This document shows, one piece after another, positions 1,201 to 39,060 of a DNA stretch of 64,000 nt. Within the stretch, counting starts at the first letter, position 1, and each line of letters opens with the position of its first letter. Position numbers and translations under genes: made by a program. Origin of the DNA: an uncultured Gammaproteobacteria bacterium (GTDB lineage: Bacteria > Pseudomonadota > Gammaproteobacteria > Arenicellales > CAJQKF01); assembly GCA_905478855.1 (NCBI GenBank), contig CAJQKF010000080.1, forward strand, positions 1 to 64,000, read 5' to 3'. The notes under the pieces were generated by a model. It was not told the origin of the DNA. It ran no database searches and saw only the letters and a program-made list of their open reading frames with translations.

Positions 1201-2490
1201 TCATGCGACTACACCCAAAATTGAGTCGCTTTTCTCTTCAATCACTTCGGATTCAAGCACCATAGTAAAACGTTTAATACAGGCGCTTAAACCAATAATT
1301 ACGGAGGCCATAGTTAGACCCTGGCCATAAGCTAAACCCGGCCAAAGAATCATGTTAAGAGTCATCAACGTTGTAAATACAACCAATGCCTGAATCAATG
1401 GTAAAGAAACCCCGAAGCACTTTTGTAAACGCCAGTGTGTTCGAACTGAGATAAAAAATAATGAGAAACAAGCACTTACGTAAGTGAGTCCGCCAACCAA
1501 ACCGTACTTGAAAAGAATACCGATGATACCTAAGTCTGACGGAAAAAACTTGGGACCAAATAAGTCTTGATAAGTTTTTGTGTAACCACTCGATTGCCCC
1601 CAGCCTAGCAACCAGTTTTTGCTGAACTCATCAAGTGCTAGCTTGAACGATGCCAGTCGGACTTCAGCACCGTGAGCGCTGACAAAAATATCCATTGCGA
1701 TACCTGTACCAGCTCCAATTAAAAGAATAACCAATGGCGTAGCGACAATTGCTAACCCGGCTTGGGACTGTTTGCGGCATACAATCACATAAAGCAAAAC
1801 CGAAACAAGCAACCCTGCGGCAACCGCTCTCAACATAACCAAACTCCATATATAGCAAGTTATGATAAGTGCTACGATCGCAACGCTCTTGACCACCGTA
1901 GAACCTCTTCCAAAGATAGTAAAAAAACCACTTAAAAAGACAATGATCATGGAGTAAGTTGGAGGTTTTAAACGAAAACCTCGTGACTCATCATATGTTA
2001 CTAAATGATGAGTAAACGCATCTGTGGAAAAGTATGCTGCTTCCAGATCAAGATAAAAATAGAAAAATAGATAACTAACTAACGTTAGAGAAGCGGCAGC
2101 CATGATAGCTCCAACCAATCGGCTAATGCTCATACCTATGATATGTAAGAAAAATATTACAGGGGCTAACAATAACAGCATGAATTCTCTCGACGCAAAA
2201 ATTGACGGAGTAATAGCTACTCCAGCCTTCAAAGAAAATATTGCAGACCAAGTAATCATTACAAACAGACAAAAGCCTGGTGCGCCAACAACCCACTTCC
2301 ACCAATCAAAAGCTTCCATGCGAAATGCACTTAAATATGCCCCCTGAACATAAAGCATTAATGCTAGCGCGATACCGAGTTCTTGCATGCGATTGTGTAA
2401 GAAATACTTACCACCTTGAAGACCTGCAAAGAGAGCAAACACGAGCCCAATCCACAAGACATTTCGATACGTAGCGCCAATCTTTACCAC
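1201..2490 (-). CDS. O-antigen ligase/polymerase-like membrane protein (Wzy/WaaL type)
   Basis: A polytopic inner-membrane protein with about ten or more hydrophobic segments and a large loop in the second half (around FGPKFFPSDLGIIGILFKYGL) typical of the O-antigen ligase/polymerase superfamily, which joins undecaprenyl-linked sugar repeats. WGQSSGYTKTYQDLFG precedes the last helices as in ExoQ/Wzy-like proteins. The frame is open back to an ATG at 2586, but that would overlap the strongly coding end of the GT2 gene by 103 bp. A GTG at 2490 gives a 7-bp overlap and starts just before the first membrane helix, so I prefer it. Polymerase versus ligase cannot be settled here. Confidence 0.75.
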   Translation of the reverse strand: MVKIGATYRNVLWIGLVFALFAGLQGGKYFLHNRMQELGIALALMLYVQGAYLSAFRMEAFDWWKWVVGAPGFCLFVMITWSAIFSLKAGVAITPSIFASREFMLLLLAPVIFFLHIIGMSISRLVGAIMAAASLTLVSYLFFYFYLDLEAAYFSTDAFTHHLVTYDESRGFRLKPPTYSMIIVFLSGFFTIFGRGSTVVKSVAIVALIITCYIWSLVMLRAVAAGLLVSVLLYVIVCRKQSQAGLAIVATPLVILLIGAGTGIAMDIFVSAHGAEVRLASFKLALDEFSKNWLLGWGQSSGYTKTYQDLFGPKFFPSDLGIIGILFKYGLVGGLTYVSACFSLFFISVRTHWRLQKCFGVSLPLIQALVVFTTLMTLNMILWPGLAYGQGLTMASVIIGLSACIKRFTMVLESEVIEEKSDSILGVVA

Positions 2491-3521
2491 ACCCGTTTGC
2501 CCAACAATATTCGAAATATCAGTAGGGCTTTTTGCGGGTGGCCTTGTCGAATACGGTTTATCGACTGCAACAACGTGATCAACCATGCCAGAGGATAGGC
2601 CACGGGATTAAAACGCCAAATTACTTTAAGCTTGTTACGAAAAATGTAAAAGTCGGACAAAAGAGATGATTGTCTCGCCCCACTCGGAGAACCAATGCTA
2701 GCACCCTCTTTGTGATACACCACCGCATCCTCGGCGTAAACGTGTTTGAATTTTTTCTTAGCACGCATGCACCAATCAATTTCCTCGAAATAGAGAAAAT
2801 AGTCTTCTTGCATAAGTCCAACCGTGCGCACAAAATCTAACGGCACCAGCCAAGAACAACCTGTAATGAAGTCTAATTTCAATTCAACACTTCGATGATC
2901 AGAAACCTCGTCTAGCAATAGGTCTCTACCGAAAGTTGTACTGGACAAACCAGTCCACCGATTAAATCGCGCTCCACCAAGTGCCTGAATGGTGTCGGGT
3001 CGGAAATAATGCATTACACGTGATCCACATGTTGCCGGTTCACGTTCTGCGTCAAGACGATTTACCATTTGTTGCAACGAGTCATGCTGACACAATGTGT
3101 CGTTGTTCAGCAACCATACATAGTCGAAACTATTTGAACTTAACGCGTATTTCAATCCAATATTATTGGCTCCTGCAAAACCTAAGTTCTTTTTTACCGG
3201 AATAATGAGTAATTGTTCATTATAGGTATGACCACTCTGAATATTTTCGATCTCACTTTGTTCCACTATAGCCGCTTCCATAGAAGCACTTTTGTGGCTC
3301 TTTGATAATAATTGTATGTTTCGATCCAATAACGTATCGATTTTGCGAGTTTTACTCCAATTGTAAATACTCTCTATCGACCCATCATTCGAATAATTAT
3401 CACACAGCAGAACTTGATAATTTGTGTAAGAAAGTCTAGAAACACCTTCCAAGCATTCAATTGTGTCTTTTGCTCCCTTGTAATTAACTATCACTATCAA
3501 AACACGGGGCTGACTACTCAT
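2484..3521 (-). CDS. GT2-family glycosyltransferase (rhamnosyltransferase-like)
   Basis: A 345-residue GT-A fold enzyme. The N-terminus VLIVIVNYKGAKDTIECL is the classical GT2 opening; LLNNDT is the metal/nucleotide-binding equivalent of DxD; FITGCSWLVPL and YFLYFEEIDWCMRAK (catalytic-base region) match the WbbL/RfbF-like rhamnosyltransferase group. A non-conserved insert of about 35 residues sits at roughly 55-90. The C-terminus ends in an amphipathic and basic stretch without a clear membrane anchor. It overlaps the upstream GT4 gene by 4 bp (ATGA), indicating translational coupling. The sugar specificity is inferred only from family resemblance. Confidence 0.85.
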   Translation of the reverse strand: MSSQPRVLIVIVNYKGAKDTIECLEGVSRLSYTNYQVLLCDNYSNDGSIESIYNWSKTRKIDTLLDRNIQLLSKSHKSASMEAAIVEQSEIENIQSGHTYNEQLLIIPVKKNLGFAGANNIGLKYALSSNSFDYVWLLNNDTLCQHDSLQQMVNRLDAEREPATCGSRVMHYFRPDTIQALGGARFNRWTGLSSTTFGRDLLLDEVSDHRSVELKLDFITGCSWLVPLDFVRTVGLMQEDYFLYFEEIDWCMRAKKKFKHVYAEDAVVYHKEGASIGSPSGARQSSLLSDFYIFRNKLKVIWRFNPVAYPLAWLITLLQSINRIRQGHPQKALLIFRILLGKRVW

Positions 3522-4777: not shown

Positions 4778-5157
4778 GTTAGCTCCGGTTTAAAGTCTCG
4801 AGAATCTGGATATTTTTTATCTACGTTAGCTAGAATGCAAAATACGTGCCAATCACATAAATTATTGTTATTGTTGACTAAAAATAAAAATATAGTTAAC
4901 TATTTGTTTGTTCTAGGTTTTTCATTTCATTTATGACTCGCAAAATGCAATGAAGTTTGCAATGCAGTTCGTAATCCTCCATATAAGGCTACCACCAAGG
5001 ATCAAGGACAAACTTTATCGCGTAAGACTAGTTCGTAAAGACACAAAAAAAATCAGAAAACTGAAATTTTGGCATGAGAGTTGCATGGTAACTAAGGCGA
5101 ACCGGGTCAAATCCCAATTTGGCGTCCACTTTCACTTAAATTATGGAATTTACGCAT
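4778..5157. promoter_or_regulatory. Divergent intergenic region with an A-tract inverted repeat
   Basis: About 380 bp separate the divergent GT4 and sugar-phosphate transferase genes and must hold both promoters. An imperfect inverted repeat, GTTGACTA at 4873-4880 and TAGTTAAC at 4893-4900 (7 of 8 positions symmetrical), flanks a 12-bp A/T-only spacer. The TTGACT inside the left arm could also serve as a -35 box. No coding sequence with recognisable features is present; the short frames here have no family signature. A role as a regulator-binding site is inference only. Confidence 0.35.
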
Positions 5158-32160: not shown

Positions 32161-33617
32161 GACGCAACAGGTCCCGGTAAAGTCTCACCAGACGATAAAC
32201 CAAGCATGGCAATAACCTGACGATTGGATGAATCACCATCAAATGGTTCCAGCTCAATTTTCCGTAATCTTTCTCGTCCTTCAATGTACTGATCTTGACC
32301 ACTCAATTGCTCATTAATCATAGTATCTAAAGACTCAAAACTTTCAGCTAATGCAACACCACCACTTTCGACAATAGGCCTGTAATGGTCCAAATCATAC
32401 CAGCGCTTTACACTTTCATTATAAGCTCTGGTCAAATACCCATCGAAGCCGATATTAATAATAGGCTTATCAAACGCCGCAGCATCAATTGTTATAGAGC
32501 CTTGAGTCGCAACAACAATATCAGCATGCAAAATAGAATTAATCATCATTTCTAAGGCGCCCATTTGGGCAGGCATTAATGTCACACAAGAAAACTCTGC
32601 GGCCGTTTGATATCGCGCCGCCCATCGCGGGTCTTGTGGATGTGGACGAATCAATAACTGAACTGAGTTTCCGTATTTTCCAACTAAAATCTGATCAGCA
32701 ATATATTCAACAACACCGGGTTCATGAGCTCCTAACCGTTCAGAATTTCCGGCAAACAGAATGACTTTATGATCAACCGGCACTCCGATACTTTTTAAAA
32801 AATGTTTACGTTCTTGGCGTAAGGAACGGTCGAAATAACTATCCATCTGTGGCCAACCGACCACATCAATAATGTCTTCTTCATAACCATGATAACGAAC
32901 TAATTCTTGTTTCATTATTTGGTTATTAACGATTAGTTTTTTACACCCTGGACAGATCGGACCCTTGGTGGTAGGTCGATCCCAACTGCCAATTACACCC
33001 ACATAGGATATTTTTCGTTTCCTAGCGCACACAGAATAATCACGATAAATCTCGTTTTGAGTATGCCAGAAAACTAACTTCTCAATCTTGATTTCTTCAA
33101 AAAAGTCTTCAATTCTCGGATCCGAAACTTGATGGGTTGAGTAGAAAAATGAATAGCATAAACGATACAGCCTATGGCTATTAGCAAACGGGAAACCAAA
33201 TCTACGACTTACATAATTTCCAGCCAAAATTTCCCGCTGCCGTCGCTTCGCATTCATTTGTCGTTTAAATTTATGCGCATAGAAACCCTGAATATGGTTA
33301 AAGCGATAGGCTATATTTGCGAAACCTAAGCCGCACCACCGGCTCAGTCGAACTGAAATGGCTCGGCTAATTTGCTTAACGAAACTAGATGACTGAGCAC
33401 CTGAAGAGGGCTTATAAATACTACGCCATTCAACATATTCAGGTAAAACTGACTTATCAGCCGGGTTGGAACTCAAAACAAAAATATGAGAATAAACCCC
33501 AGAATCAACCGAGTGTTTTACCAATTCCAACACAGAACTATTGGTAATGGCACGAAACGACATTGAATTTGGAGATAGCAATACAACAGCTCCGCGATTT
33601 GTAGTGTTTGACATCAA
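32157..33617 (-). CDS. GT-B-fold, CDP-glycerol glycerophosphotransferase-like protein
   Basis: A 486-residue soluble protein. The second half has GT-B features: HKVILFAGNSERLGAHEPG, LLIRPHPQDPRW and HADIVVATQGSITIDAAAFDKPIINIGFDG, the donor-binding pattern shared by CDP-glycerol glycerophosphotransferases, surface-carbohydrate proteins and epimerase-like folds. A CPGCKKL pair near the middle might bind metal. No membrane segment. It is the first gene of an operon with CDF and GMC genes, joined by an ATGA overlap. A role in envelope glycan assembly is inferred from the fold; the exact reaction is unknown. Confidence 0.7.
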   Translation of the reverse strand: MMSNTTNRGAVVLLSPNSMSFRAITNSSVLELVKHSVDSGVYSHIFVLSSNPADKSVLPEYVEWRSIYKPSSGAQSSSFVKQISRAISVRLSRWCGLGFANIAYRFNHIQGFYAHKFKRQMNAKRRQREILAGNYVSRRFGFPFANSHRLYRLCYSFFYSTHQVSDPRIEDFFEEIKIEKLVFWHTQNEIYRDYSVCARKRKISYVGVIGSWDRPTTKGPICPGCKKLIVNNQIMKQELVRYHGYEEDIIDVVGWPQMDSYFDRSLRQERKHFLKSIGVPVDHKVILFAGNSERLGAHEPGVVEYIADQILVGKYGNSVQLLIRPHPQDPRWAARYQTAAEFSCVTLMPAQMGALEMMINSILHADIVVATQGSITIDAAAFDKPIINIGFDGYLTRAYNESVKRWYDLDHYRPIVESGGVALAESFESLDTMINEQLSGQDQYIEGRERLRKIELEPFDGDSSNRQVIAMLGLSSGETLPGPVAS

Positions 33618-33755
33618 AATTAATACCGTAAATATTATTTCGCTATTGTAATGGACTTAACCGTACTTAGGTTCTCGCTTGACCAAAATCCAACACTATA
33701 TTTCTCTTATTATCAGTTCAGAAGGCTTATTGTCCGGTTAACTATCAATTTAAAT

Positions 33756-33784
33756 TTGACGAATACCGTTACCAAGATTAGACT
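33756..33784 (+). promoter_or_regulatory. Sigma70 promoter of the riboswitch-BHMT transcript
   Basis: TTGACG at 33756-33761 (five of six consensus bases) and TAGACT at 33779-33784 (four of six), spaced exactly 17 bp. Transcription would begin near 33791, just before the riboswitch aptamer at 33800, which supports the assignment. Confidence 0.6.
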
Positions 33785-33799
33785 GATATTTAGCAGCAG

Positions 33800-33922
33800 C
33801 TCATCGAGACCGGCGGAGGGAAGGGCCCAGTGATGCCGGGGCAACCTGCGAAGTTAACCACTTCGAAAAGGTGCCAACTCCCTCGATAGATCGTATTTTA
33901 CAATGCGCTATCGAGAGATGGG
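33800..33922 (+). ncRNA. SAM-I (S-box) riboswitch
   Basis: All four helices of the SAM-I aptamer can be drawn. P1: CTCATC 33800-33805 with GATGGG 33917-33922. P2 contains GGAGGGA 33815-33821, GGGCCC 33823-33828, TGATGCC 33831-33837 and the hallmark GGCAACC 33840-33846. P3: CGAAGT 33849-33854 with ACTTCG 33860-33865. The conserved GGTGCCAACTCC lies at 33870-33881. P4: CTCGATAG 33882-33889 with CTATCGAG 33908-33915, a perfect 8-bp stem, followed by AGATGGG closing P1. It binds S-adenosylmethionine in this family, and should repress the downstream homocysteine methyltransferase when SAM is plentiful. Confidence 0.88.
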
Positions 33923-33994
33923 GATTTACGCAACATCAACTAAAAACTGATGAAGGGCGTAGTAGCAACTTTGTGATCTAAACTCATAAAGTTC

Positions 33995-34029
33995 CCGATG
34001 ATTTGCTATTTATATAGATTATCATTCGG
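33995..34029 (+). promoter_or_regulatory. Possible ribosome-site-sequestering hairpin downstream of the riboswitch
   Basis: CCGATGAT at 33995-34002 can pair with ATCATTCGG at 34021-34029 (one bulged T), masking part of the GGAG ribosome-binding site at 34028-34031 before ATG 34043. A second hairpin, AACTTT 33967-33972 with AAAGTT 33988-33993, lies just upstream. Neither is followed by a T-run, so control at translation looks more likely than termination. I did not find a clear competing helix with the aptamer, so the mechanism is inference. Confidence 0.35.
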
Positions 34030-34042
34030 AGACCACACCAAC

Positions 34043-35083
34043 ATGTCCAAACTCGAACAACTACTGTCCGCCAAGGGATACTTACTAGCTGACGGCGCAA
34101 CCGGTACAAACCTGTTCGAAATGGGTCTGCAAACCGGTGACTCACCCGAACCCTGGAACACAGATCATCCAGACCGCATAACCCAGTTGCATCAGGGTTT
34201 TATCGATGCTGGTTCAGATATCATTCTGACCAATAGCTTTGGCGGTAATTTTTATCGACTTAAGCTTCACAACTGTGAATCCAAAGTTCAGGAATACAAC
34301 GTTAATGCAGGGAAAATTGCTCGTGCTGCAGCAGATGCAGCAGATCGACCCGTTCTGGTTGCCGGCTCAATGGGCCCCACTGGAGAACTATTTCAACCCA
34401 TGGGCGACCTTACCATGGCAGCAGCAACAGCTGCGTTCACCGAACAGGCACAGGCGTTAGCAAGCGGTGGAGTGGATATGTTATGGGTGGAAACTATGTC
34501 GTCCAAAGAAGAGGTGATTGCGGCGCTTGCAGGGGCCAGCACAACCAACCTGCCTATTGTATGCACATTAAGCTTTGATACTAACGGCAGCACAATGATG
34601 GGGTTATCCCCTTCAGAGTTTGCCGAAATGTCTCGAAGCATAACCGTTCGACCTCATGCCTATGGTGCGAATTGCGGACTTGGACCAGCGGAAACCATTT
34701 GCGGCATTCTTAATCTGTCTAACGCAGCCAAACCCGGTGATGTTCTTGTGGCTAAAGGAAATTGCGGAATTCCGGAATACATCGACGGAGTAATTAGCTA
34801 TGCGGGAGAACCAGAATTAATGGGCCGTTATGCCTGTTTAGCCTATGATTCAGGCGCACGAATTATCGGCGGATGCTGTGGCACAACGTATGAACATGTC
34901 AGGGTTATGCGGCAGGCGTTGGATAAGCATACCTCCATCGGTAGACCAGATACCCAATCAGTAACGTTAGAACTGGGGGAAATTAGCACTGGTGGACGCG
35001 CCTTCCTGGAAGGCAAAATGAACGCAGATACCATTGCTGTTGGTAGAAAAACCGGTAACCGACGGAGACGTCGAACCAGCTAA
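34043..35083 (+). CDS. Betaine-homocysteine S-methyltransferase
   Basis: A 346-residue zinc-dependent homocysteine methyltransferase (Pfam S-methyl_trans). ADGATGTNLFEMGL opens the barrel, LTNSFGGNFYRL and VAGSMGPTGELFQPMG are BHMT-like, and the three zinc cysteines are Cys211 (GANCGLG) and Cys278-Cys279 (IIGGCCGTTYEH). It transfers a methyl group, probably from glycine betaine, to homocysteine to give methionine. I chose ATG 34043 with GGAG at 34028-34031; an upstream ATG at 33998 adds 15 unconserved residues. A SAM-I riboswitch precedes it, which fits methionine production. The tail ends in an unusual Arg-rich stretch (GNRRRRRTS). Confidence 0.88.
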   Translation: MSKLEQLLSAKGYLLADGATGTNLFEMGLQTGDSPEPWNTDHPDRITQLHQGFIDAGSDIILTNSFGGNFYRLKLHNCESKVQEYNVNAGKIARAAADAADRPVLVAGSMGPTGELFQPMGDLTMAAATAAFTEQAQALASGGVDMLWVETMSSKEEVIAALAGASTTNLPIVCTLSFDTNGSTMMGLSPSEFAEMSRSITVRPHAYGANCGLGPAETICGILNLSNAAKPGDVLVAKGNCGIPEYIDGVISYAGEPELMGRYACLAYDSGARIIGGCCGTTYEHVRVMRQALDKHTSIGRPDTQSVTLELGEISTGGRAFLEGKMNADTIAVGRKTGNRRRRRTS

Positions 35084-36512: not shown

Positions 36513-36890
36513 ATGACATACAAACGCATGGTAGTTGAAATAGGCATGGGTACTGATCTGCAAGGTGCCGACTACACCAAAGCCGCGATAAGAGCATTAA
36601 AAGACGCCCTATGGCATAACTCATTAACTATAGCACCCGCTCTTGGTTTGCCACGAGAATCTATGATGGTTGAAATTTCCATCGGTGTGGCCAAACCAAA
36701 CCTTGTAGATACAAAGCAAGTGGAAGCAGTTCTACCTTATGGCTCCTCCACCATTGATGTTGTGGAGGGGGGATTGGATATCGTTAGCGATTGCGGCACA
36801 AAAACAACTGTTATCGCGAATGCCGCAGCGGTTGTTTATCTAAATATTGCTGAAGCAAACGGCACCCAAGCAACAAGGGAGACGACTTAA
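36513..36890 (+). CDS. Lin0512-family protein, copy 1
   Basis: A 125-residue protein of the Lin0512 family (TIGR02058/PF09585), whose function is not known. The N-terminus has the family motif region VVEIGMGTDLQGADYTKAAIRALKDAL; the conserved GxGxDxHG appears as GMGTDLQG, with Gln for His. MMVEISIGVAKPN and GSSTIDVVEGGLDI match the rest of the fold. I chose ATG 36513, aligning with its neighbour; an upstream TTG at 36468 is less likely. The stop overlaps the next start (TAATG), so the two paralogues are translationally coupled and could form a hetero-oligomer. Confidence 0.8.
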   Translation: MTYKRMVVEIGMGTDLQGADYTKAAIRALKDALWHNSLTIAPALGLPRESMMVEISIGVAKPNLVDTKQVEAVLPYGSSTIDVVEGGLDIVSDCGTKTTVIANAAAVVYLNIAEANGTQATRETT

Positions 36891-37264
36891 TGACCATCCA
36901 ACGTATTATCCTTGAAATGGGCACTGGTAATGATTTGTACGGTGAAGACTATACAAAAGCCGCCGTAAGAGCCGTACAAGATGCTCTGCACCATAGCTCA
37001 ATAACATTATTTCGTTCTCTCGGCATTGATCGTGATTCGATGATGGTTGAGGTCACCATTGGTGTACAAAAACCAAATCAAGTAAATATTGATGAGGTGG
37101 CAAAACAAATACCCTTTGGCACAGTGATCGTCAATACTACTAAGGGTGGTCTTAATATCAATGATGCAGAGAACGATATCGTAACGGTAATAGCCAGTGC
37201 TGCAGTGGCGGCCCGCCTAGATATACCTAAAGGAAAATATGTTGCGGGCCCACCTACCTCTTAA
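36890..37264 (+). CDS. Lin0512-family protein, copy 2
   Basis: A 124-residue paralogue of the preceding gene; roughly half of the residues match. The motif reads GTGNDLYG, with Tyr in place of the family His, followed by EDYTKAAVRAVQDALHHSS and SMMVEVTIGVQKPNQV. Function unknown. It begins on the last base of the previous stop (TAATG). The redox operon begins 185 bp downstream on the same strand, so co-transcription is possible; the gap contains a 7-bp hairpin (37279-37295) without a T-run. Confidence 0.82.
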   Translation: MTIQRIILEMGTGNDLYGEDYTKAAVRAVQDALHHSSITLFRSLGIDRDSMMVEVTIGVQKPNQVNIDEVAKQIPFGTVIVNTTKGGLNINDAENDIVTVIASAAVAARLDIPKGKYVAGPPTS

Positions 37265-37449: not shown

Positions 37450-39060
37450 ATGAAACGAACTCCCATAGCAAAATTAGACAACCTTTTTGATCGAAAACCT
37501 GAGTATGCCTTAGTCGGTGAAGTCGACTTAGTAGTTGTGCGTTGGGACGATGATGTATCCGTTTTCTATGGGCGTTGTTTACATCGCGGCGCATTAATGT
37601 CCGATGGTCACGTGCGTGGAAATAATTTAATCTGCGGAGTTCATGATTGGGATTATCGACTGGATACGGGTGTGTCAGAATACGCAAACGAAGAAAAACT
37701 AAAGCGTTTTTCTTGTTGGCTAGAAGATGGAGAAGTCCAAGTAGACGCAGACGAAATCTATCAATGGTCTCAGGATAATCCACAACCCTTTAACCGGAAA
37801 GCCTATCTTGGATTATACGCCGATACCGGTCACGGCACCGCGGAAGAACCGCACAACGGGTTGATCCGTCACTACGCTAAATTTGGACTAAAGAAAACCG
37901 GACATCATGGCCAAGTCGATGCCATGGGCGTTCCGCGTGACGACCTACCAACATGGGATGATATACAAATTATCACCGCCCAACTGCATAAACCACCATT
38001 GCTAGATGACGAACCAGTGGGAACTGAAGTGGTAATAGGTCCTAATGCTAAAAAACCACTAACCCTGAAAATTCCCCTGTTTGTTTCCGATATGAGTTTT
38101 GGAGCACTATCAGAGCCTTCAAAGAGAGCCTTAGCTGCAGGCGCAGAGATGGCTGGAACCGGCATTTGTTCGGGTGAAGGCGGAATGTTGCCGGAAGAAC
38201 AGGAAGAGAACAGCCGATATTTTTACGAATTGGCATCCGCACGTTTTGGCTTCTCGTGGGATAAACTTGACAAGGTGCAGGCGTTTCATTTTAAGGGTGG
38301 CCAGGGCGCGAAAACAGGCACCGGCGGACACCTTCCGGGAGAAAAAGTAAAAGGCAAAATTGCTGAAGTACGTGGATTACAAGAAGGAGAGCCCGCGGTT
38401 TCACCACCTCGTTTTCCAGACTGGACAGACGTGTCTCAAATAAGAGACTTTGCCGATCAAGTTAGAGAACGAACCGGCGGCATACCGATAGGTTATAAAC
38501 TATCTGCACAACATATCGAAAAAGACATAGATGCAGCACTAGATGTTGGTGTTGATTATATTATCCTTGATGGACGAGGCGGCGGAACAGGCGCCGCACC
38601 GATCATATTTCGAGATAATATTTCCGTACCCACAATCCCTGCTTTAGCTCGAGCACGTAAGCATCTTGATCAGCGCGGAAGACAAGATATCAGCCTCGTT
38701 ATTACCGGTGGACTGCGAAAACCTGGGGATTTTGTTAAGGCATTGGCAATGGGAGCTGATGCTATCGCCCTATCCAATTCTGCAATGCAGGCAATTGGCT
38801 GTATTGCAATGCGTGCATGTCATACCAACAACTGTCCGGTTGGTATTGCGAGTCAAAAGCCACATTTAGCATCTCGTATTGTTGTTGAAAAATCAGCAAA
38901 ACAACTTGCAAATTTTTTCACCGCATCGACAGAACTAATGCAGGTAATGGCGCGCGCCTGCGGACACGATCATCTATCCAAACTTTGCGTCAACGATTTG
39001 ACTACATGGAAAAAAGAGATGGCAGATCTATCCGGTGTCAGTTTTGGCGGACCTAAATGA
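37450..39060 (+). CDS. Rieske domain fused to glutamate synthase-like FMN oxidoreductase
   Basis: A 536-residue two-part enzyme. Residues ~1-90 form a Rieske [2Fe-2S] domain with ligands Cys43, His45 (CLHRG), Cys62 and His65 (ICGVHDW). Residues ~140-520 are a GltB-type FMN barrel: SDMSFGALSEPSKRAL, GICSGEGGMLPEE, FKGGQGAKTGTGGHLPG, DGRGGGTGAAP and the Fe-S cysteine cluster CIAMRACHTNNCPVG. It lacks the GltB amidotransferase and C-terminal domains, so it is not a complete glutamate synthase. Electrons probably pass from the Rieske centre to FMN. It leads a five-gene operon and is joined to the next gene by an ATGA overlap. The substrate is unknown. Confidence 0.85.
   Translation: MKRTPIAKLDNLFDRKPEYALVGEVDLVVVRWDDDVSVFYGRCLHRGALMSDGHVRGNNLICGVHDWDYRLDTGVSEYANEEKLKRFSCWLEDGEVQVDADEIYQWSQDNPQPFNRKAYLGLYADTGHGTAEEPHNGLIRHYAKFGLKKTGHHGQVDAMGVPRDDLPTWDDIQIITAQLHKPPLLDDEPVGTEVVIGPNAKKPLTLKIPLFVSDMSFGALSEPSKRALAAGAEMAGTGICSGEGGMLPEEQEENSRYFYELASARFGFSWDKLDKVQAFHFKGGQGAKTGTGGHLPGEKVKGKIAEVRGLQEGEPAVSPPRFPDWTDVSQIRDFADQVRERTGGIPIGYKLSAQHIEKDIDAALDVGVDYIILDGRGGGTGAAPIIFRDNISVPTIPALARARKHLDQRGRQDISLVITGGLRKPGDFVKALAMGADAIALSNSAMQAIGCIAMRACHTNNCPVGIASQKPHLASRIVVEKSAKQLANFFTASTELMQVMARACGHDHLSKLCVNDLTTWKKEMADLSGVSFGGPK

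Follow-up and report, generated by a model that had tools for sequence, protein, structure and literature searches.

The leader and its gene

The window, by which is meant the whole 64,000-nucleotide stretch analysed here, comes from an uncultured gammaproteobacterium and carries on its + strand, at 34043..35083, a gene for a betaine-homocysteine S-methyltransferase (BHMT) of 346 aa. The protein scores 446.6 bits against NCBIfam NF005718 (curated cut-off 338) and 204.8 bits against Pfam S-methyl_trans (PF02574), and is predicted to use betaine as methyl donor. After a gap of 40 nt it is followed by a short-chain dehydrogenase gene (PF00106; 35124..35903, + strand) which, to judge from the spacing, probably shares its transcript. 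Further downstream, two adjoining Lin0512-family genes (36519-37264, + strand) are followed by a Rieske and glutamate-synthase-like fusion protein (37450-39060).

Upstream of the BHMT gene lies a SAM-I riboswitch aptamer (33798..33924, + strand), the sole Rfam match returned by cmscan over the whole 64-kb window. The match to the SAM-I covariance model (RF00162) is significant, with 75.9 bits (gathering score 44.4) and an E-value of 5e-16, and is full length, covering model positions 1-108. The isolated aptamer RNA folds with -50.6 kcal/mol (z -3.46; 0 of 200 shuffles equally stable) into helices P1-P4 arranged as in the SAM-I family, namely a four-way junction with the conserved core, where P1 pairs 33800-33805 with 33917-33922, P2 pairs 33810-33815 with 33834-33839, P3 starts from 33840-33847 paired with 33869-33875, and P4 pairs 33882-33889 with 33908-33915. 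The fold of the leader from 33790 to 34060 has a z of -4.80, and in an alignment with 31 metB leaders the covariation score of the aptamer helices was reached by none of 500 shuffles. The first-pass annotation of this DNA, made from the letters alone, had described a complete P1-P4 SAM-I aptamer with the BHMT start about 120 bp downstream; both points are borne out, the distance from the aptamer end at 33924 to the ATG at 34043 being 118 nt. A leader RNA of this kind would be expected to bind SAM.

A sigma-70-type promoter, TTGACG-N17-TAGACT, with nine of twelve consensus matches, is found at 33756..33784 (+ strand). Taken alone it is not clearly above chance, as 1 kb of sequence holds four promoter-like pairs against 2.1 +/- 1.4 in shuffles. 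It is nevertheless very probably real, because like hexamers, a TTGACN/TANACT-type pair, precede the aptamer in all 31 homologous metB leaders (30 end in -ACT, one reads TAGTAT). The hexamers of these leaders make 9 of 12 matches each, against a mean of 5.9 in shuffled upstream sequences, and are separated by spacers of 17-18; the promoter-to-aptamer distance is 4-7 nt in the metB leaders and 13 nt in the window. The promoter with 17-bp spacing that had been proposed just upstream of the aptamer holds up on sequence grounds.

Between aptamer and start codon extends a platform of three hairpins, all on the + strand. The first, P5 (33926..33962; UUACGC/GCGUAG with an inner hairpin CAUCA/UGAUG), matches the columns of the metB leaders one by one, and in the 32-leader alignment both sides have changed at the four pairs tested (4/4). 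P6 (33967..33993; AACUUUGUGA/UCAUAAAGUU, inverted repeat I8, 90% complementary) stands where the metB leaders have their GC-rich P6, the stem itself having been replaced. A putative switch segment, UCCCGAUGAUUUGCU (33993..34007), is complementary to the aptamer 5' end at 33795-33809 and also, via CCGAUGAU, to a stretch overlapping the ribosome site. In constrained folds this second complementarity appears as hairpin P7 (CCGAUGAU/AUCAUUCGG, 33995..34029), by which the beginning of the ribosome site is paired in the fold that resembles the SAM-bound state. The Shine-Dalgarno region CGGAGACC (34027..34034) contains GGAGAC, a motif that is invariant in the 32 aligned leaders and by which these leaders had been chosen.

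As regards the metabolic setting, a MetH activation domain was not found in the genome to which the window belongs (4.08 Mb, 94% complete, so that absence is not proof), and its six PF02574 proteins are the BHMT and five others, none of them a full MetH. For these reasons BHMT is plausibly the main methionine synthase, which would make SAM feedback on it sensible; the earlier proposal that high SAM lowers BHMT agrees with the sequence evidence. The only PF01717 (MetE-like) protein found in the genome is encoded on the same contig at 16124-17176 (- strand); this 350-aa protein, similar to the C-terminal part of MetE, falls short of the cut-offs set for methionine synthase by its models and is possibly a short methionine synthase. 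A separate locus, L200 (G000:C49), encodes at 1444-3195 a 583-aa protein in which a homocysteine S-methyltransferase-like domain is fused to a methyltransferase domain of the PRK14968 type.

SAM-I in Gammaproteobacteria and the metB leaders

The aptamer before BHMT is the single SAM-I of its genome. The class was absent from all 59 other relatives searched, and in the order as a whole it occurs in one of 109 genomes, the one considered here. A class-wide sample gave SAM-I in 10 of 369 genomes (own included), while the order of genome G225 has it in 138 of 246 and the family f29 in 129 of 150 (128 of them above the cut-off). SAM-I is thus at home in some lineages of Gammaproteobacteria but a stranger in the order of the window. 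In the G225 order it precedes metB (2/2 tested, L106 and L109) or metX (2/2 tested, L002 and L008), and a SAM-I switch of the Xanthomonas met operon is already described in the available text of PMC7270179. For about 200 proteobacterial genomes, the portion available of another paper gives only SAH, SAM-alpha and SAM-SAH as the Rfam riboswitches at methionine genes (PMC4239095). The first-pass annotation had regarded a SAM-I element before BHMT in a gammaproteobacterium as noteworthy. As far as the target is concerned this is right, but SAM-I itself is unsurprising in view of the two high frequencies (138/246 and 129/150) and of Xanthomonas. What is unusual is the BHMT target instead of metB or metX, the isolation of the element in its order (1/109) and the presence of SAM-II-like elements at the BHMT of relatives. 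In another gammaproteobacterium, a SAM-I of 64.2 bits at L010 (G292:C80; 1501-1603, - strand) precedes an ORF of some 156 aa which, by eye, is unlike a methionine gene.

Among 60 relatives 38 possess BHMT itself, as do 39 of 246 genomes in the order of G225. When 95 BHMT-type loci were searched with a model derived from ten SAM-I aptamers of Gammaproteobacteria, strong matches (54.8-109.2 bits) were given by the window, four Clostridium loci and one Fusobacterium locus. In the Clostridium and Fusobacterium loci the aptamer lies directly before the gene in L102-L104 and about 1-1.8 kb upstream in L092 and L089. Among the 67 proteobacterial loci the window is the only SAM-I carrier. Weak matches of 11-18 bits (6 of the 12 matches; also L223) were not scored as SAM-I, and these counts refer to loci rather than independent genomes (73 different among 85 tree rows, some cut short upstream). 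In 15 further f29 loci no SAM-I was found before BHMT, the best score being 11.1 bits. In the accessible portions of the open full-text papers that bring SAM riboswitches and BHMT together, no description was found of SAM-I before BHMT in a proteobacterium.

The relationship of the leader to the metB leaders was traced through the platform. Its 121 nt, from the aptamer end through the start codon (33925-34045), were aligned with 75 other gammaproteobacterial SAM-I leader rows (L156 repeats L004). The best global alignments, with L172 (z 6.8) and L004 (z 6.6), were equalled by 0 of 200 shuffles; once the ribosome site was masked, the values were 5.1 and 4.6, respectively, with 0 of 500 shuffles as good. 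The mean masked z was 1.78 in 32 GGAGAC-type leaders vs 0.37 in 52 others. The final alignment comprises the window and 31 GGAGAC-type metB leaders, all from one family, f172, with which the window is collinear from the promoter through the ribosome site. The window platform was missed when the 64 kb were searched by nhmmer with a profile HMM built on the metB platforms, and the platform homology is based on global alignment with shuffle controls, multiple alignment and the promoter. By sequence comparison the whole leader, consisting of promoter, aptamer, P5-P7 and CGGAGACC, is homologous to the metB leaders of one family in another order. In leaders such as L004 and L172 the promoter, the aptamer, P5-P7 and a GGAGACC ribosome site align with the window end to end; unlike the window, the f172 leaders stand before a gene for cystathionine gamma-synthase (2/2 tested, L106 and L109), have a stronger predicted switching and possess a second alternative pairing. 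A control unit seems to have moved onto a new gene, BHMT, before which it would most likely have arrived by horizontal transfer or by rearrangement.

Proposed control of the ribosome site

In the proposed mechanism, the promoter at 33756-33784 would drive transcription of the leader. Once SAM is bound, P1 would be closed and the platform would fold as P5, P6 and P7; P7 would then pair the start of the Shine-Dalgarno sequence CGGAG, beside which CCGAUGAU pairs, and BHMT translation would be off. In the absence of SAM, the 5' strand of the aptamer (AGCAGCUCAUCGAGA) would quit P1 and pair with UCCCGAUGAUUUGCU, including its CGAUGA, and this exchange helix would break P7, so that the ribosome site would be freed and translation could begin. 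It is highly probable, in our judgement, that the SAM-I riboswitch shuts off BHMT translation when SAM is plentiful; both the direction of switching and the translational level of control are what we infer.

The complementarity between the aptamer 5' strand and the platform is conserved. Its arms in the window, at 33795-33809 and 33993-34007, form the longest inverted repeat within 33600-34060 (15 nt, 80% complementary). From the 32 leaders RNAalifold returned the exchange helix UCAUCG.GA/UC.CGAUGA, between the aptamer 5' end and the platform, and not P1. Counted over the cells of the alignment, pairing reaches 99.6% in this helix and 97.9% in P1; both are mostly invariant, and the exchange helix shows no covariation in these leaders because it is nearly invariant there. 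Of 66 leaders in which the 5' strand of P1 reads TCATCG, 48 have the exact complement CGATGA further downstream (4.5 expected from shuffles); where it reads CCATCG, CGATGG occurs in 5 of 7 (0.5 expected) and CGATGA in 0 of 7, and in leaders with rarer P1 hexamers the exact complement is found in 0 of 15. These counts cover 88 recognised leaders of 99 (11 fall outside the pattern) and concern related, not independent, leaders.

Constrained folds were computed for 30 metB rows, 29 of them distinct (L156 repeats L004); L165 and L172 stand outside this set and the window was folded apart. With P1 forced, GGAG was 0-14% unpaired in the 29 distinct leaders; with the exchange helix forced, its unpaired fraction rose in every metB row, by 52 points on average and by only 1 point in L183. 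In the window the computed accessibility of the ribosome site rises modestly, from 0.38 to 0.60, when the sequence is folded up to the AUG, and the shift nearly disappears (0.34 to 0.37) once the fold takes in 17 nt of the coding region. Moreover, with no ligand present the window leader prefers the SAM-bound-like state by about 3.4 kcal/mol, and the second alternative pairing of the metB leaders (aptamer UCCUGC with GCAGGG) has been lost. As modelled, the window switch looks weaker than the metB switches.

The small change of accessibility computed for the window would also suit a functional aptamer that acts mainly on transcription, either in a Rho-dependent manner or via P5/P6, with the ribosome site not hidden, and the platform hairpins of Xanthomonas are weakly effective in transcriptional fusions according to the text available (PMC7270179). 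This explanation is nonetheless unlikely, given that no intrinsic terminator, nor any hairpin with a U-run, was found on the + strand between 33400 and 34400 and that the conserved complementarity ties the aptamer 5' strand to a part of the platform that adjoins the Shine-Dalgarno sequence. Somewhat less probable again is that the leader is a decaying relic, still SAM-I by score, which lost its switching after the move to BHMT: computed switching weaker than in the metB leaders, the missing second pairing and occurrence in one genome only would fit such a decay, but the aptamer is full length, the stems of P5 and P6 have been replaced in both arms rather than broken, and promoter and ribosome site have been retained. 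SAM-dependent repression of BHMT translation is the preferred reading, and the riboswitch class, promoter, target gene and direction of control put forward at first are all supported at the level of sequence.

Origin of the leader and candidate SAM-responsive RNAs at other BHMT genes

A contaminating or chimeric contig, which would make the SAM-I/BHMT pairing unreal in this lineage, is very improbable: the assembly is in 170 contigs, SAM-I is otherwise missing in the order and the BHMT groups with L048 and not with three own-family copies, but all eight 8-kb pieces of the window correlate in tetranucleotides at 0.89-0.94 with 15 loci on further contigs of the same genome (GC 0.432 vs 0.442) and at -0.19 to 0.04 with the metB-leader family; leader and gene taken by themselves, 1.5 kb in length, are too short for a verdict on composition (0.60 vs 0.12). 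The window BHMT is nearest to L048, with 67% identity and a tree support of 100/99, and is 55-57% identical to the own-family copies. L048 is a GC-rich MAG without riboswitch, and upstream of its BHMT nothing like the cassette was found. As the backbone of the tree is unresolved, a transfer of the BHMT gene itself is not claimed.

Many other BHMT genes are preceded by an element of a different, SAM-II-like kind. Where L055 had given a weak match, not scored as SAM-I, the Rfam scan showed upstream of BHMT, at 4832-4907, a SAM-II (RF00521) match of 29.6 bits, under the cut-off of 36. The element has the pattern GCGCCGAUUUGA...UUGC.GGCGC...GCUAAAG, followed in many loci, by eye, by a hairpin and a U-run. 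A model of 25 sequences detected it ahead of the BHMT gene at 40 of the 81 other proteobacterial loci, made up of 11 of 29 relatives in the order, 29 of 37 GenBank loci and 0 of 15 f29 loci, a count that includes most of the model-building sequences and their near-copies. At E up to 0.01, RF00521 itself matched in 4 of 8 scanned BHMT loci, with 29.5-34.8 bits. Because the scores stay under the cut-off, these elements are named SAM-II-like only; their P1 is invariant, for which reason covariation is uninformative. A further one lies in the genome of the window, before metZ in L207 (G000:C89; 2747-2823, - strand; 34.3 bits, E 2.9e-6 in 351 bases), the O-succinylhomoserine sulfhydrylase being identified by NF006003. 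The 25-sequence model detected no SAM-II-like element in the window or in three own-family BHMT loci. SAM-II in Gammaproteobacteria has already been mentioned in print (PMC2704228, in the part available). Downstream of BHMT, at a similar distance in four MAGs, the Rfam scan gave group I intron-like matches of 38.9-43.7 bits, under the cut-off of 50 (L060 9450-9646; L055 9449-9659; L045 9402-9609; L071 4791-4987; all on the - strand).

It appears that the genome of the window places SAM-II on the formation of homocysteine and SAM-I on the formation of methionine, while many relatives have SAM-II on BHMT. A tentative reading, which we hold to be a little less than an even chance, is that the metB cassette of promoter, riboswitch and ribosome site moved across orders onto BHMT, replacing or standing in for a SAM-II-like switch. 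SAM-I replacing SAM-II at this gene is put forward as a possibility only, because the own family carries neither at BHMT. If true, one riboswitch class would have given way, at a single gene, to an unrelated class that binds the same ligand, the SAM-II-like class still being present on metZ. Apart from this, the leader is an instance in which the re-use of a control cassette in bacteria can be followed to its new gene, and in which the leaders of donor type, the promoter and the ribosome site can all be recognised. Two unrelated classes of SAM-sensing RNA appear to precede the same gene in related bacteria, and a set of gammaproteobacterial SAM-II-like elements just beneath the Rfam cut-off is named.

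The SAM-I class, bhmT under SAM-II or SAM-V (PMC5069961, PMC2704228) and the SAM-I of Xanthomonas (PMC7270179) are known from the available parts of these papers; the move of a whole leader to another gene and the differing riboswitch class at one gene are new. The window can be viewed, on the evidence of its sequence, as a SAM-I member whose target is new for proteobacteria and whose origin is unusually clear. In Candidatus Pelagibacter, SAM-II and SAM-V stand before bhmT, and a SAM-responsive RNA represses BHMT with the same metabolic logic as proposed for the window; unlike the window, these switches belong to unrelated aptamer classes and to an alphaproteobacterium (text available of PMC5069961 and PMC2704228). 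Together with SAM-I here and the SAM-II-like elements of the order, the available account of Pelagibacter (PMC5069961) suggests that betaine-dependent methionine synthesis has repeatedly come under SAM feedback. The Clostridium loci L102-L104 also have SAM-I directly upstream of a BHMT relative, a homocysteine S-methyltransferase-type gene, but the protein is only 28% identical and the phylum is a different one. The SAM-IXcc riboswitch of Xanthomonas campestris, as far as its available description goes (PMC7270179), is like the window a gammaproteobacterial SAM-I before a methionine gene with three hairpins after the aptamer. It acts mainly on translation through sequestration of the Shine-Dalgarno sequence and the AUG, as the window would in the proposed model; uncharged initiator tRNA is a second ligand, bound at its anti-Shine-Dalgarno sequence (Tang et al., 2020). 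Unlike the window, it controls metA/metB/hom and not BHMT.
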